A DNA stretch of 64,000 nucleotides from Corallococcus macrosporus. GTDB taxonomy: Bacteria; Myxococcota; Myxococcia; Myxococcales; Myxococcaceae. Positions 4,465-9,896 of the stretch are shown here, piece by piece; position 1 is the first letter of the stretch, and each line of letters opens with the position of its first letter. The stretch spans positions 2,557,001 through 2,621,000 of the forward strand of contig NZ_JAFIMU010000007.1 of the NCBI RefSeq assembly GCF_017302985.1, read 5' to 3'. Below the pieces are notes generated by a model that worked only from the letters and a program-made list of their open reading frames with translations, searched no databases and was not told where the DNA came from. A program made the position numbers and the translations under genes.

Positions 4465-4976
4465 GTGTGGAGGGTCTCGAACCCGACCCTCGCGTGCGCG
4501 CGCAGGGAGCGGGTGTTTCGGACCGAGACCTCGGTGACGACGCAGTCGAAGCGCGAGCGGAGCTGCTCGCGGTGCTGGTGGTAGAGCGCGTCGAAGAGGC
4601 CCTTCCCCCGGTGGGCCTTGTCCACGCACACCTGCCCCATCACGTAGAAGCGCTGGTCCCTGAGCGGCCGGCCCCGGTGTTCGAGCCCTTCGAGGAGCGC
4701 GAACATCGGGTCCAGGACGGGGACCAGCGGGCGGCACTCGCGGGGCATCACCAGCGCGTACGCCACCACGTCGGAGCCCTGCAGGGCCACGATGCTGGGG
4801 ATGAGCACGTGCATGCACTTCAGCGTGTCCAGGCTGTGCTGGACGGTGACGAAGCCCTGGGCCTGCTGCTCCTCCGGTGAGAGCGACGGAGGGAGGTTGC
4901 GGCGCTGGAGGGCCTGCACCTGCTCCAGCTCCTCGTAGGTCCGCACGGGCCTCACGTCATACGGATTCGACGGCAT
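4398..4976 (-). CDS. GNAT-family N-acetyltransferase
   Basis: A 192-residue GNAT-fold protein. The acetyl-CoA loop is recognisable in YVMGQVCVDKAHRGKGLFDA (R/Q-x-x-G-x-G/A pattern around residues 110-130). It is followed by the VVTEVSVRNTRSLRAHARVGF segment, in which the Asn and the GF-containing beta-bulge typical of GNAT motif B are visible. The substrate cannot be read from sequence. The C-terminal strand (TWAVVLWDW) lies inside the overlap with the convergent response regulator, so both genes must share those 67 bp. Confidence 0.8.
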   Translation of the reverse strand: MPSNPYDVRPVRTYEELEQVQALQRRNLPPSLSPEEQQAQGFVTVQHSLDTLKCMHVLIPSIVALQGSDVVAYALVMPRECRPLVPVLDPMFALLEGLEHRGRPLRDQRFYVMGQVCVDKAHRGKGLFDALYHQHREQLRSRFDCVVTEVSVRNTRSLRAHARVGFETLHTYRDATDTWAVVLWDWGAATSR

Positions 4977-5013
4977 GGCGCGGGAGCATAGGCCCGCGCC
5001 ATGCCGTCGGGGG

Positions 5014-5208
5014 TCAGCGATCGAAACCGGCCGGACCCGGCGGCGGCTTGTCCGGCAGGTCGTTCTCGAACTCGTCGCGGGAGAACGGCGAGGTCACGAG
5101 CGTCTTCGCCTCCAGCTCCGCGGGCGCCGGCAGCGGCTTTTCCGGGAGTGACTGCTGAGGCCTTCGGGGCATGGGTACCAGCACGGGACTGATCCGACAT
5201 CTCGACAT
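5014..5208 (-). CDS. Small proline-rich protein downstream of the CHAT protease
   Basis: A 64-residue protein of no recognised family. It contains an internal duplication, LPEKPLPAPA (21-30) and LPDKPPPGPA (51-60), exactly 30 residues apart, separated by an acidic/aromatic stretch (SRDEFEND). A strong AGGAGG ribosome-binding site sits 6-7 bases before ATG 5208. The frame stays open upstream to an ATG at 5322 that overlaps the CHAT gene stop as ATGA, which would give a coupled 102-residue form with a basic N-terminal extension. It is the third gene of an ECF sigma / anti-sigma-CHAT unit, so it is a plausible substrate or regulator of the protease; this role is inference. Confidence 0.55.
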   Translation of the reverse strand: MSRCRISPVLVPMPRRPQQSLPEKPLPAPAELEAKTLVTSPFSRDEFENDLPDKPPPGPAGFDR

Positions 5209-5318
5209 GACCGTGTCCTCCTGACGAAGCCGCCGCGGGGTCCGCGTTCCCGATGCCGCGTGCGGCCTCCTCTTGAAGACGTCCCAGGTCTGGATCTTTT
5301 CAGTGACCCGGCAGGGGG

Positions 5319-8318
5319 TCATTCGAAGAGGAGCACGTCGTGCACCCAGCGGTCTCCAGGGGAGGCCTGGAGCCACGCCTGGCGCTCGTCGCGCAGGGCC
5401 ACGCTGGGGGCGGCGCCCGCGTGGATGCGCTCGCGCACGTCGCTGAAGAAGCGGCCCGCGGTGTCCGGGATGTCCACCGTGGCGGCCATCACCGCGCGAG
5501 CCCCGGCGTCGAGGAAGGCCACCGGCAGGCTGAAGGACTCATGAGGGAAGGGCGCGGTGCGAGCGGCGCCACAAGCGGCCAGGAACACCAGCGGCGCGCC
5601 CGTGAGCCCTTCAGCGCACACCTGCTGGGCGGTGAGCGCGTAACGGCCATCCCCCTCCGGAGCCAGCATGAGGAGCGAGGCGTCCGACAGCTCCGGGCTG
5701 AACACGCCATGCGTGTGGATCTCCACCTCGGTGGCGGTGCGCATCGCCGTCAGCACACGTGACGGCGTGGCCCGCGAGCCCTCCAGCATCACGCGCCGGG
5801 CGTCCTGCTTCGCGGGAGGCGCCATCGGCGGCAGACGGGCAAGGCCCAGCGCGGGAGGCGTGTCCACGTTGGCGACGACCAGGTGGACACCGCTGTCCAC
5901 CGGAGGAGGTTGCACCGTCGCATGCCCCACGCGGTAGCTCCAGGCGAAGTCCGAGGGCAGCAGCCGGGGCAGGCCCGTCACCGGAGGCGGGGCCAGCACC
6001 TGCACCTGTTCGCAGCCGCGCAGCGCTTCCTGCACCGCGGGCGGGACCAGCCCGGAGGCGTCCTGCCCGAGCGGCGCCGTGCGGGTCTCGTTGAAGTCCC
6101 CGAGCACCGCGCCGGAAGGACCCCGCGCCACCGCGAGCGTGCGCTCGTGCTGCACCGACACCGCGAGCACGCAGCGCTCCGGCACCTCCATCACCTGGAG
6201 CTGACGGCCCGCGAGCCTGAGCGCCTCCTCGTGCGCACCCGCGCGTCCGGCGTCGGAGATGAGCGCGGCGGAGGCGCGGGCCCGCGCGCGGCGGGCATTC
6301 ACGTCGTCGGGCCATTGCTCCGCTTGCGTGAGGGCGCTCGCCAGCAGCGCGCGTCCCGCGGCGGGGGCGCGCTCCAGCTCGAACTCCCCTTGGATGGCGT
6401 CCAGCAACGCGCGCTCACCGGGGCGCGGCTCGCCCTGCCTCAGTCCGGAGAGCGCGCGAGACAGCGCGTCCGCCGCTCCAGGCATGGGACCGAAGCGGGC
6501 CAGGTCCGCGAGCGCGCCCGCGCCGTTCAGCCCCAGCGGCTGGCCGGACGCCATCGACTGCTCCAGGTGCTGACGGGCCTCGTCCACGCGGAAGTCCATC
6601 CACGCCAGGGTCGCCAGGTTGCGGTGCACATAGCCCGCCTGCCGTGAGTCATCCGGCGCGCGAGCCAGCGACTCCCGCAGGTACGCGCTCGCGGTGGGCG
6701 CGACATGATGGAAGCGCGCCACCTGCGCCAGCTCCTGCAGGAACTGCCGCTCCTGCTGCCACTCGCCGTGCTGCCTCGCGAGCCGCCAGCCGCGCAGCGC
6801 GTGCTCATGGGCCTCGGCGGGACGGTGCAGCTCGCCCAGGTACATGTCCGTGAGCCACCCGTGCAGCTCGGCGCAGCGGTAGTCCAACCGCTCCGCCTCG
6901 CACGTGCGCAGCGCCTCCAGGACGCGCGTCTCCGCCTTCCACCACTGTCCCTCGCGCAGCTCCAGGTTGGCGCGCTCGCGTTCGGCGATGAGGTGGAACC
7001 ACGGATCCCCCAATCCGTCCGCGGCGCGAGCGAACGCCGCCACGTCCACGGGCCGCCCCGCCTTGAGCTCGTACCCGAGCGCCCCCACGTACAGGTCGTC
7101 CTCCCCTGAACGTCGCAGCGCCTCCAGGAAGGCCTTCGGGAACAGCGCCCCGTCGCGCACGAACCGCACGTAGTCCCGCGCGAGCGGCCCACGCTTCTCG
7201 AAGTCCCGCTCCGCCACGCGCAGCACGGTCGCATGGAGCACCGAGCCGCCGCCGTAGGCCCGGTCCAGGGCGTCCGCGAGCGGCAGCAGCCGCAGCACCG
7301 CGTCCTTCGACGGCGCCGCGCGGACCGCGTCATAGAACGCCAGCCGCACGATGCCGGGCAGCCGCGAGGCCTCCTCCACCGGGAGCGGCGCGGTCGTGTC
7401 CGCCATCAGGTCCTGCGTCGCCGCGAACGCCTGCTTCCAGGCGCGGCCGCGAGCCAGGGTCTCTTCGCGCAAGCGGCCCGCACGGTCCCGGGCCTCCGCG
7501 CTCCAGCCGGGCTCGCCCAGCTTCGCCACGGCGTCGAAGGCCTCCGCCGCCAGCAGGGGCAGCTCCAGGTTCCGCAGGACCAGCGCCAGGTTCCACAGGG
7601 CCTGCGGATGGTCCGGCTTCTTCCGGAGCACGTCCTCGAGCACGGCCAGCGCCTCATCGAGCGCGGCCTGCTCGGAGGTCCCCGCGTGGGCCAGCGCCAG
7701 CGCCACCGCGCGGTCGGAGTCCGTGTCCGGTGACGCGGGCACGTGGCCCAGGTAGCCCAGGGCCTGCCGCGAGTCGCCCGCGATCAGGAACGCGGAGGCG
7801 ATGCCCCGCCAGTCCTGCCGGTCCTCCATCCCGGCCAGCTCCCGCAGCGGCACGGGTTCGGGCACGGGTGTCCCTCCGCGCAGGGGAGCGAAGGGACGGT
7901 GTGCATCCAGGGCCGCGGACGTCAGCCGCGCCTCCAGGCGGCGCGTGGGCTCGGGGGGCGGCCACGGCGCGGGGGCATCCTCCGTCACGCGAGCCGTCCA
8001 GGTGCTCACGGCGGTGAGGGCCAGGGCGAGCGCCCCCAGGTGGTTCCATTGGGGGCGCCAGCGGCGGGCGGGCGGCGGGGCCATGACCTCGGCGGGCTCG
8101 GACGGGACGGGCCAGGGGGCTGGGGAGGCCCCTGGGGCTTCGGGAGTCGGCGCCGCTTTCGCGGCAGCCAGCCGTCCGAGGATGTCCGCCTGCAGCAGGT
8201 CATGGAACCGGGCGCCGCAGTCCTCGCAGGAGGCGAGGTGGGCGCGGAAGCCCTCGTGGTGCTCGAGGGGCAGCTCCCCGTCCACGAAGGCGGGGAGGTG
8301 GGTGCAGTGGCCGTTCAT
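5319..8318 (-). CDS. Zinc-finger anti-sigma / TPR / CHAT protease fusion
   Basis: A 999-residue protein in three parts. Residues 1-50 form a zf-HC2 anti-sigma zinc finger: Cys5, His7, then H-x3-C-x2-C at 27-34. A Pro/Ala-rich linker with a weak hydrophobic segment (about 93-108) follows. Residues 190-700 are helical TPR-like repeats. The C-terminus is a CHAT (caspase-HetF-associated) peptidase domain with the catalytic dyad intact: His880 in IHTHG and Cys916 in LAACG. The ATG overlaps the ECF sigma stop by 4 bp (ATGA), as expected for a sigma/anti-sigma pair made in equal amounts. It probably binds the sigma factor and links its release, or cleavage of a partner, to a signal sensed by the TPR region. 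Confidence 0.85.
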   Translation of the reverse strand: MNGHCTHLPAFVDGELPLEHHEGFRAHLASCEDCGARFHDLLQADILGRLAAAKAAPTPEAPGASPAPWPVPSEPAEVMAPPPARRWRPQWNHLGALALALTAVSTWTARVTEDAPAPWPPPEPTRRLEARLTSAALDAHRPFAPLRGGTPVPEPVPLRELAGMEDRQDWRGIASAFLIAGDSRQALGYLGHVPASPDTDSDRAVALALAHAGTSEQAALDEALAVLEDVLRKKPDHPQALWNLALVLRNLELPLLAAEAFDAVAKLGEPGWSAEARDRAGRLREETLARGRAWKQAFAATQDLMADTTAPLPVEEASRLPGIVRLAFYDAVRAAPSKDAVLRLLPLADALDRAYGGGSVLHATVLRVAERDFEKRGPLARDYVRFVRDGALFPKAFLEALRRSGEDDLYVGALGYELKAGRPVDVAAFARAADGLGDPWFHLIAERERANLELREGQWWKAETRVLEALRTCEAERLDYRCAELHGWLTDMYLGELHRPAEAHEHALRGWRLARQHGEWQQERQFLQELAQVARFHHVAPTASAYLRESLARAPDDSRQAGYVHRNLATLAWMDFRVDEARQHLEQSMASGQPLGLNGAGALADLARFGPMPGAADALSRALSGLRQGEPRPGERALLDAIQGEFELERAPAAGRALLASALTQAEQWPDDVNARRARARASAALISDAGRAGAHEEALRLAGRQLQVMEVPERCVLAVSVQHERTLAVARGPSGAVLGDFNETRTAPLGQDASGLVPPAVQEALRGCEQVQVLAPPPVTGLPRLLPSDFAWSYRVGHATVQPPPVDSGVHLVVANVDTPPALGLARLPPMAPPAKQDARRVMLEGSRATPSRVLTAMRTATEVEIHTHGVFSPELSDASLLMLAPEGDGRYALTAQQVCAEGLTGAPLVFLAACGAARTAPFPHESFSLPVAFLDAGARAVMAATVDIPDTAGRFFSDVRERIHAGAAPSVALRDERQAWLQASPGDRWVHDVLLFE

Positions 8319-8872
8319 CCGCTCCCCAGCTTCCGACGGGCCTCGGCCAGGTCGCGAAGCTGGTCACGCAGCTTGTGTCTCGCGTGGTAGAGCCACGTGC
8401 CCACCGTGCCGACGGGGGCGCCCAGGCGGCGGCCGATCTCCGCGTGGCGCAGCCCCTCCGAGTGCAGCTCGAAGGTCCGGCGCAGGTTGAAGGGCAGCGC
8501 CGAGACGGCCTTGAGCAGCTCCGCCTCCGTGACGCACTCCCACAGCTCCGGGTCCGGCGCCTCCGGCTCCTCGAAGAGCTTGTGCACGTTGCCCAGGTTG
8601 ATGGCGGTGGTGGCCTCCGTGCGCGAGCGGCGGCACGTGTCGAGGAAGCGGTTGTGCAGCACCCGCACCAGCCACGCCCGGCGCACCGGCTCCGCCTGGC
8701 CGCGCAGGCTGTCCCACTTCAGCAGGGCCCGCAGGAGGACGTCCTGGACCAGGTCCTCGCAAGCGGTGGCGTTCCCCCCACAGATGTTCCGCGCCACCGC
8801 CATCAGGATGGGCTGATGACGGACCGCGAAGTCGGCGTACTCCATGTCAGACGTGTCGAGCTCTTCTCTCAT
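8315..8872 (-). CDS. ECF-type RNA polymerase sigma factor
   Basis: A 185-residue sigma-70 family factor with region 2 (residues 10-80, including CEDLVQDVLLRAL and the WLVRVLHNRFLD region 2.4) and region 4 (115-175, a helix-turn-helix with LRHAEIGRRLGAPVGTVGTWL). There is no region 1 or 3, as in ECF factors. An alternative start is Met10. It is followed, with a 4 bp overlap, by the zf-HC2/TPR/CHAT fusion, its likely anti-sigma. The upstream 8905-8945 stretch is unusually AT-rich and probably holds the promoter, but no confident ECF-type -35/-10 pair could be read. Confidence 0.9.
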   Translation of the reverse strand: MREELDTSDMEYADFAVRHQPILMAVARNICGGNATACEDLVQDVLLRALLKWDSLRGQAEPVRRAWLVRVLHNRFLDTCRRSRTEATTAINLGNVHKLFEEPEAPDPELWECVTEAELLKAVSALPFNLRRTFELHSEGLRHAEIGRRLGAPVGTVGTWLYHARHKLRDQLRDLAEARRKLGSG

Positions 8873-9185
8873 CGTGCGGCCCCCAGTGCCGGTGATGAAA
8901 AGAGAACGTTATAGGTCTGATTTATTTAAAACCCAGTTAAAGCCTTACAGGGAGGATGTAGTCGGCTGACAGTCTTTGTGTGTGAAGACAGGGATTTGTG
9001 AATCCATGACGCGCCCTGTCGTCGCCGGGGCCTACCAGGCTGGTAGGACTTTCGGGCAATGGCAGATGCGGGGGCGGCTGTGGTTGCGCTGTCAGGGATT
9101 GGAGGTTCCCCGCATCGAAAGAACCGCCGATTCCAGCGGAATCCCCGCTCTGTCCTTCAGCGAAGGCCGGGCGCATCTTCGAGGC
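8873..9185. promoter_or_regulatory. Divergent intergenic region, sigma factor / methyltransferase
   Basis: About 310 bp without a convincing gene. It holds an AT-rich patch (8905-8945) next to the sigma gene and a perfect inverted repeat CCTACCA-GGC-TGGTAGG at 9031-9047 that may be an operator or a small hairpin. Nothing else is recognised. Confidence 0.35.
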
Positions 9186-9896
9186 ATGAACCACGATCAT
9201 TCCGCCCACGCACCCGTGCAGGGCTTCGGCGCCGACCGGGCGCCGCACTACGACGCCCAGGCCGCCGTGAACCTCGCCGGCTACCAGGCGGCGTATGAGC
9301 TGGGCGTCAGCGCCCTGGCCGCCGCGCTGGACGGCCAGGAGAAGGCAGCGCTGCTGCACGTGGGCCTGGGCACGGGCGCGGAGCTGTTGCCCTATCAGCG
9401 CTTCGACGTGCCGGGCTGGCGCTTCACGGGCGTGGAGCCGTCGGGTCCGATGCTGGAGGTCGCGCGAAAGCGATTGGAGGCGGAGGGGCTGCTTGAGCGC
9501 ACGCACCTGCACGAGGGCGAGCTGCGCACCCTGCCGCCGGGTCCCCCGTTCGACGGCGCGCAGTTGATGGGGGTCCTGCACCACGTGGACGGAGCGTCGG
9601 CCCGCGTCGAGCTGCTGCGCGAGGTGACGCGGAGGCTCAAGCCGGGAGCGCCGTTGGTGCTGGGCTGCCGCGTGGGCAAGGATCCGGAGCTGACGAACGT
9701 GGAGCTGCGCCGGCTGAGGGCATACGGCGTGACGCAGGAGAAGCTGGAGGCCCGGCGTCAGGCCTACGCGAAGATGCAGCCCATCGAGTCGGACGCGGCC
9801 CTGTTCGCGATGTTCGAGCGGGCCGGCCTGGTGGCGCCGAAGACGCTCTTCGTCTCGCTCCAGTACAAGGTCTTCCTCGCGCACGTCGGGCCCTAA
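9186..9896 (+). CDS. Class I SAM-dependent methyltransferase
   Basis: A 236-residue Rossmann methyltransferase. Motif I is LLHVGLGTGAELL (about residues 55-68), the acidic end of strand 2 follows at FTGVEPSG, and the strand 4 region reads GVLHHVDGA. The start at 9186 (Met-Asn-His-Asp-His) is chosen because the conserved core follows directly and the upstream frame is poor. The substrate is unknown. Its TAA stop (9894-9896) is the target site of the adjacent IS5 element, which left the reading frame intact. It originally met the imm11 gene tail to tail. Confidence 0.8.
   Translation: MNHDHSAHAPVQGFGADRAPHYDAQAAVNLAGYQAAYELGVSALAAALDGQEKAALLHVGLGTGAELLPYQRFDVPGWRFTGVEPSGPMLEVARKRLEAEGLLERTHLHEGELRTLPPGPPFDGAQLMGVLHHVDGASARVELLREVTRRLKPGAPLVLGCRVGKDPELTNVELRRLRAYGVTQEKLEARRQAYAKMQPIESDAALFAMFERAGLVAPKTLFVSLQYKVFLAHVGP

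Follow-up and report, generated by a model that had tools for sequence, protein, structure and literature searches.

A DdvA-like sigma/anti-sigma operon of Corallococcus macrosporus and the small proline-rich peptide gene linked to it

A 64-kb stretch of contig NZ_JAFIMU010000007.1 of Corallococcus macrosporus (the window, within which all coordinates below are counted unless a contig is named) carries three consecutive genes on the minus strand. They code for an extracytoplasmic function (ECF) sigma factor, a fusion protein that combines a zf-HC2 anti-sigma domain with TPR repeats and a caspase-like CHAT domain, and a 64-residue proline-rich peptide. The fusion matches the transmembrane anti-sigma factor DdvA over its whole length, the peptide gene follows it throughout its own clade, and the same ECF-type promoter box precedes the sigma and the peptide genes. 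The reading that we favor, with moderate confidence, is a DdvS/DdvA-type ECF switch with the peptide as its output or feedback partner. The features of the operon are as follows.

8315 to 8872, minus strand: ECF sigma factor, 185 residues (Pfam Sigma70_r2 and Sigma70_r4_2, sequence)
5319 to 8318, minus strand: DdvA-like fusion of zf-HC2, probable transmembrane helix, TPR and CHAT, 999 residues (Pfam, PDB homology)
8217 to 8300, minus strand: zf-HC2 anti-sigma domain, residues 7 to 34, with H27, C31 and C34 (Pfam zf-HC2, alignment columns)
7983 to 8042, minus strand: probable transmembrane helix, about residues 93 to 112, with RRWRPQWNH just before it (hydropathy of the alignment)
6201 to 7847, minus strand: TPR-type helical solenoid, residues 158 to 706 (AlphaFold2 model)
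5322 to 6170, minus strand: CHAT (caspase/separase-like) domain, residues 717 to 999 (Pfam CHAT, AlphaFold2 model)
5709 to 5711 and 5571 to 5573, minus strand: codons of the dyad residues His870 and Cys916, respectively (invariant among relatives)
5014 to 5208, minus strand: proline-rich peptide, 64 residues (ATG at 5208, AGGAGG upstream, LPEKP and LPDKP)
8905 to 8926, minus strand: ECF-type promoter box upstream of the sigma gene, AATAAATCAGACCTATAACGTT (best-scoring site, 22 of 22 clade loci)
5278 to 5299, minus strand: ECF-type promoter box upstream of the peptide gene, AAAGATCCAGACCTGGGACGTC (28 of 28 clade loci)

The fusion protein is a full-length DdvA homologue

The tight order of the three genes agrees with a preliminary description of this DNA, as does the sigma factor, in which Pfam recognizes sigma-70 regions 2 and 4. 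The stop codon of the sigma gene and the start codon of the fusion gene share an ATGA at 8315-8318. Pfam also bears out the union of zinc finger, TPR and CHAT in one protein: zf-HC2 scores 32.6 bits, above the cut-off and with the HxxxCxxC zinc anti-sigma motif, CHAT scores 55.1 bits, and TPR_16 reaches 23.8 bits, below its cut-off. A probable transmembrane helix had been missed.

Homology to DdvA was apparent in sequence and in structure. A phmmer search aligned residues 4-999 of the fusion with residues 5-991 of DdvA (E 2.1e-135). A profile built from 16 relatives matched 27 PDB sequences, among which only DdvA (8rot/8rw5) covers the full length, and the window fusion as a single query matched DdvA entries only. 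The AlphaFold2 model of the fusion (mean predicted local distance difference test score 78.7) superimposed on 8rw5 with a Z score of 43.5 over 838 residues and a root mean square deviation of 3.9 Å. The next structural matches were Craspase (Csx29-type) TPR-CHAT chains, with Z scores of about 16-21, and separases, at about 14-16, with unrelated TPR proteins interspersed among them at similar Z. By these matches the fusion is a full-length DdvA homologue, and the sigma, anti-sigma and TPR-CHAT part of the operon is of an already known kind. DdvA of Myxococcus xanthus is a transmembrane anti-sigma factor solved by cryo-electron microscopy, according to the titles of PDB entries 8ROT, 8RW5 and 8RLZ. 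The DdvS/DdvA pair is treated in a review (in sections of PMC12288465), and a 2015 report described the inactivating signal of DdvA as unknown (in sections of PMC4374960).

The window fusion is not the DdvA orthologue: it scores 456 bits against 8rot_B, whereas another gene of the same genome scores 1175. As judged from alignment at 37% identity, it is a paralogue of the genome's own DdvA orthologue. About 82 kb separate that orthologue from the operon of the window; it lies at locus L050 (G000:C7:2641000-2656000), a 15-kb stretch that also encodes two cyclases of the CBASS (cyclic oligonucleotide-based antiphage signaling system) type and a protein that weakly matches Peptidase_C25. A related myxobacterial membrane switch is already known to control antiviral defense.

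To compare the fusion with its relatives, we selected these by their match to the fusion protein (P0002), with a threshold outside the genus of E <= 1e-60 in 39 family genomes, or by pattern. Of the 86 family matches in the loci used, 68 full-length relatives remained after the removal of 5 near-duplicates and of 13 sequences that were short or had no CHAT domain. Among relatives with a residue at the position, the zinc ligands are conserved in 45 of 47 (H27), 46 of 47 (C31) and 45 of 48 (C34). His870, within an HTHG at 868-871, and Cys916 are present in all 68. The intact dyad and Cys916 of the preliminary description therefore stand, while the histidine had been misplaced: position 880, which it named, is an alanine.

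One transmembrane helix probably sits between the zinc finger and the TPR region. Across the 68 relatives, the stretch aligned to residues 93-112 has an 18-residue hydropathy of 0.78-2.97, and in 65 of them a positive net charge lies just N-terminal to it; by this measure the helix is clear in most relatives and weak in the window protein. From this hydropathy and the title of DdvA as a transmembrane protein, the TPR-CHAT part is predicted to face the periplasm, given that the zinc finger has to contact the sigma factor in the cytoplasm. The CHAT part has the His/Cys dyad of CHAT peptidases (clan CD) and may be an active protease.

A peptide gene linked to the fusion

The peptide carries the duplicated LP(E/D)KP motif seen at the outset, as LPEKP and LPDKP. 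In all 28 sampled members of the window clade, a peptide gene lies some 60-190 bases downstream of the fusion; a rule identified 24 of these genes, and inspection added those of L061_0, L156_1, L157_1 and L159_1. Local support for the clade is 99% in a FastTree tree with several long branches flagged. None of the 40 relatives outside the clade has a peptide by the same rule, eight of these having also been inspected. Peptide homologues, whose absence beside other copies of the fusion would have spoken against the preliminary reading, are thus present within this clade. A D-x-PPP-x(3-4)-G-L-like core, occurring once or twice, is common to most of the peptides, which vary on either side of it.

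Within the genus, the fusion (at least 66% identity) occurs in 11 of 16 genomes, the same 11 that have the peptide motif DKPPPG(P/T)AG, and all 14 sites with this exact pattern lie inside these peptides. Of the five fusion-less genomes, G013 retains a degraded peptide remnant only, without fusion or sigma gene, and G014 still has the sigma gene and a stub of the anti-sigma gene. The converse search, starting from the peptide, gave matches in 39 of 147 genomes of the class. In genus g41 there were 32 matches, two of them already in the set and 30 fetched; the fusion lies directly upstream of all 30, 12 of which are loci L154-L159 and 18 new loci in 16 genomes, and the rule found the peptide frame again in 29 (not in L242). 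Two weak peptide matches, in G010 and G107, have no adjoining fusion; matches in G066, G002:C77 and G052 were left out. The pairing of fusion and peptide is found in three family genera (g1, g18 and g41) and is thus more than chance.

The motif codons differ synonymously between species, and the uncorrected ratio of nonsynonymous to synonymous differences (pN/pS) is 0.32 between the window peptide and its nearest relative. A Shine-Dalgarno-like AGGAGG precedes the peptide ATG in seven of 12 genus relatives, and AAGGAG or AGGGGG in the other five. We set aside a longer peptide coupled to the fusion by a second ATGA, at 5319-5322, where the fusion stop codon overlaps an alternative start. This overlap exists as previously noted, and its start is probably unused, because AGGAGG precedes the ATG at 5208 and the promoter box at 5278-5299 lies inside the proposed N-terminal extension. 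The longer frame containing the peptide (P0003) had no Pfam or NCBIfam match up to an E value of 1, and inspection of the peptide by eye revealed no signal sequence. The titles and abstract openings listed for the literature on CHAT with ECF or anti-sigma factors, on CHAT in Myxococcus or with caspases and TPR, on Csx29/Csx30, ECF classification, DdvA/DdvS, CBASS with ECF factors and small proline-rich proteins with ECF factors contain no description of the peptide or of its clade-wide occurrence with its own box.

Mimicry by the peptide of a CHAT segment, PPPVxGLPxLLP, was also considered. The spacing is unlike that of the peptide motif, and shared ancestry suffices to explain the segment, so that it is kept as a lead only. 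Clade members have G-L in this segment; in most other relatives a different residue follows the G, or there is no G.

These data bear on an alternative in which the CHAT domain serves purely as a structural sensor, the anti-sigma factor is inactivated by signal binding or by other proteases, and the peptide, although it has a promoter of its own, is a passenger. The family does occur with quite different downstream genes, as such an arrangement would allow. However, His870 and Cys916 are invariant in the whole alignment though most positions vary, and the five genomes of the genus that lack the fusion also lack the peptide motif, with nothing beyond the degraded remnant in G013. We regard this alternative as unlikely.

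Promoter boxes and the place of the peptide

All 28 clade loci have a 22-base box, AARGAWTC-N10-CGTT, in the gap that separates the peptide gene from the fusion gene. The same box lies upstream of the sigma gene at each of the 22 loci where that region is readable, the contigs of the other six beginning inside the fusion. The first A is conserved at 50 of 50 sites, the second at 49 and CGT at all 50. With the invariant AA and CGT taken as the putative cores, the distance between them is 18, close to the core spacing of ECF promoters. A spacer of about 16, from GGAAC to CGTT, was tried and fails to fit the box. A scan of 4700-9300 found no sigma-70 promoter, and its single terminator-like site falls outside the operon.

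Scored with a matrix trained jointly on both kinds of site, the sigma sites reach 13.5-32.9 bits and the peptide sites 19.0-30.7 bits. A matrix trained on sigma sites only gave 7.0-29.6 for the peptide regions; of 1400 shuffles, 95% scored below 5.2 and 99% below 9.3, with a maximum of 16.0, so that all 28 peptide regions exceed the former level and 24 the latter. In the 64-kb window, the sigma and peptide boxes are the only two sites of at least 14 bits. The whole genome holds four sites with at most one mismatch to the pattern, namely the two operon boxes, the box of a sister sigma gene on another contig, and one further. A box-like site with one mismatch is found at G000:C7:2318202-2318223 and is near-identical in G002, G004 and G011. 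The search covered this sequence only, and promoters of another sequence would escape it.

The separate ECF-type box argues that the peptide is a product of sigma activation and not its trigger. We therefore place it at the end of the following chain. The cytoplasmic zf-HC2 domain would hold the sigma factor at the inner membrane, and the single transmembrane helix would link this domain to a TPR-CHAT part in the periplasm, the receiver of an envelope signal. Inactivation of the anti-sigma factor by the signal would proceed through cleavage that depends on CHAT, or else through a conformational change after which other proteases act. Freed sigma factor would then transcribe its own operon and, from the separate promoter of the same type, the 64-residue peptide, which would serve this sub-family as its dedicated output or as a feedback partner and is most likely cytoplasmic. 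A more elaborate form, in which the peptide made from its dedicated promoter upon activation feeds back on the same caspase-like protein, with the small partner gene swapped between paralogues, is speculative and in our view rather improbable.

The preliminary description had instead put the peptide forward as a natural substrate of the CHAT domain. As a substrate or regulator of the protease, after the manner of Csx30 and Csx29, it would control the sigma factor through its cleavage. The linkage of peptide and fusion and the invariant dyad would suit such a role, Csx29-type chains rank next after DdvA structurally, and the TPR-CHAT protease of type III-E systems cleaves a sigma-binding inhibitor (in sections of PMC10028731). 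However, the peptide is unlikely to be a CHAT substrate because the CHAT part is predicted to be periplasmic, whereas the peptide has no signal sequence recognizable by eye. Furthermore, Csx30 is itself the sigma inhibitor, with at least 565 residues (same source), whereas in the window operon the inhibitor is the fusion, and the peptide's own sigma-type box puts it downstream of activation. Taken together, these points make the substrate role distinctly unlikely.

Its own box would equally suit an autoinduction loop, in which the peptide leaves the cytoplasm by an unrecognized route and the TPR-CHAT part senses it in the periplasm. Its divergence outside the motif is ligand-like, and Rap/NprR-type TPR peptide receptors match the TPR part with Z scores of 14-15, although unrelated TPR proteins score alike. 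Inspection by eye nevertheless gave no signal sequence, the neighbors scanned include no exporter, and short proline-rich peptides serve many other purposes. We consider such a loop very improbable.

Several observations weigh against the favored switch with the peptide as its output or feedback partner. The model is unsure in the active-site loops 874-880 and 916-929, and the window helix is only moderately hydrophobic, its value of 1.33 being the second lowest of the 68 (the lowest belongs to a truncated row). The remaining six pairs of peptides have pN/pS values of 0.51-1.08; therefore, only the motif is clearly constrained. The joint matrix is circular, as it was trained on the sites that it scores, and some real sites do no better than the maximum of 16.0 among 1000 shuffles (L091 and L092 at 13.5, L243 at 15.9). 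The sites for the sigma-only control were themselves chosen with the joint matrix. In G014, a site of 27.9 bits falls within a frame of 1043 codons, showing that single strong sites can arise by chance, and scores of 17.6 and 14.5 were obtained downstream of the fusions of two relatives that do not belong to the clade. Use of the boxes by the window sigma factor is itself something that we infer from sequence. The same box precedes the sister sigma gene in G000 and G014, and a site of that type occurs in 15 of 16 genus genomes (the gene context was checked in two), so that another sigma factor may read the peptide box.

The sister locus in the window genome, L052 (G000:C4:291000-303000), codes for a sigma factor 61% identical to that of the window and has two zf-HC2 genes without CHAT and the same box. 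At L214 (G014:C17:25000-38000), the gene of a sigma factor 76% identical to the window's, with a box, is followed by an anti-sigma stub of the first 51 residues, an apparent decay of the operon.

Related loci and known systems

Outside the clade, many relatives have other genes downstream of the fusion, whose products are signal-peptide- or lipoprotein-like (about 160-255 residues) or soluble. In a related group, at least 11 loci have split systems, with a zf-HC2/TPR protein without CHAT and a TM (transmembrane)/TPR/CHAT protein without zf-HC2 in the same stretch. In the two split cases tested, Cupin_8/JmjC-type genes adjoin the separate TPR-CHAT genes (L048:5463-6470 and L093:8334-9278). At split loci L048, L095, L096, L098 and L163 (L163 and L095 appear to be one contig), another small frame, containing YVNC and PLPPPxVPxL, lies close to the sigma gene on the same strand and may encode a further type of PPP peptide associated with the family. 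Small acidic frames ending in (I/V)AS(Y/F) lie downstream of fusions or split anti-sigma genes at L089, L090, L092, L164, L166, L167 and L215.

The operon had also been read as a CRISPR (clustered regularly interspaced short palindromic repeat)-independent proteolytic switch with no CRISPR nearby. A simple check of the window agrees, as no 20-mer recurs three or more times at 45-90-base steps. PADLOC gave no match for the sigma factor and the fusion; it gave matches for three of the five neighbors scanned, consistent with a RecQ-type helicase, a methyltransferase and a protein with an ATPase domain. Type III-E parts (Cas7-11, Csx30) were not among the matches listed for these two operon proteins and five neighbors (the best 25 of 46 for the helicase). 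A sigma/anti-sigma/TPR-CHAT unit without adjoining CRISPR parts is thus retained, while the novelty claimed for the fusion yields to its likeness to DdvA. A term search of PMC7406223 and PMC8103513 found no mention of a CHAT domain.

With a compact predicted regulon, consisting of its own operon, one peptide gene and perhaps the sister sigma operon, this DdvA-like clade is a small, testable system that bears on sensing by TPR-CHAT anti-sigma factors, on caspase-like cutting and on the role of the peptide. In relatives where anti-sigma and CHAT are encoded by different genes, the two functions come naturally separated.

Three known systems frame the operon. It shares with type III-E Csx29/Csx30 the TPR-CHAT fold and the link to an ECF sigma factor (in sections of PMC10028731), but its putative protease and anti-sigma factor are one predicted membrane protein, no CRISPR parts were found with it, and its peptide is far smaller than Csx30. 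The carQRS operon of M. xanthus likewise has an ECF sigma factor, a membrane anti-sigma factor and a third product as output, the antirepressor CarS; it differs in that CarR has six transmembrane helices and CarS antirepresses CarA, a comparison made by description only (in sections of PMC8156234). Closest is DdvS/DdvA, an ECF sigma factor with a transmembrane zf-HC2 anti-sigma factor that has TPR and CHAT and is homologous over its whole length, from which the window copy differs in having, downstream of it, a peptide gene with a separate box.

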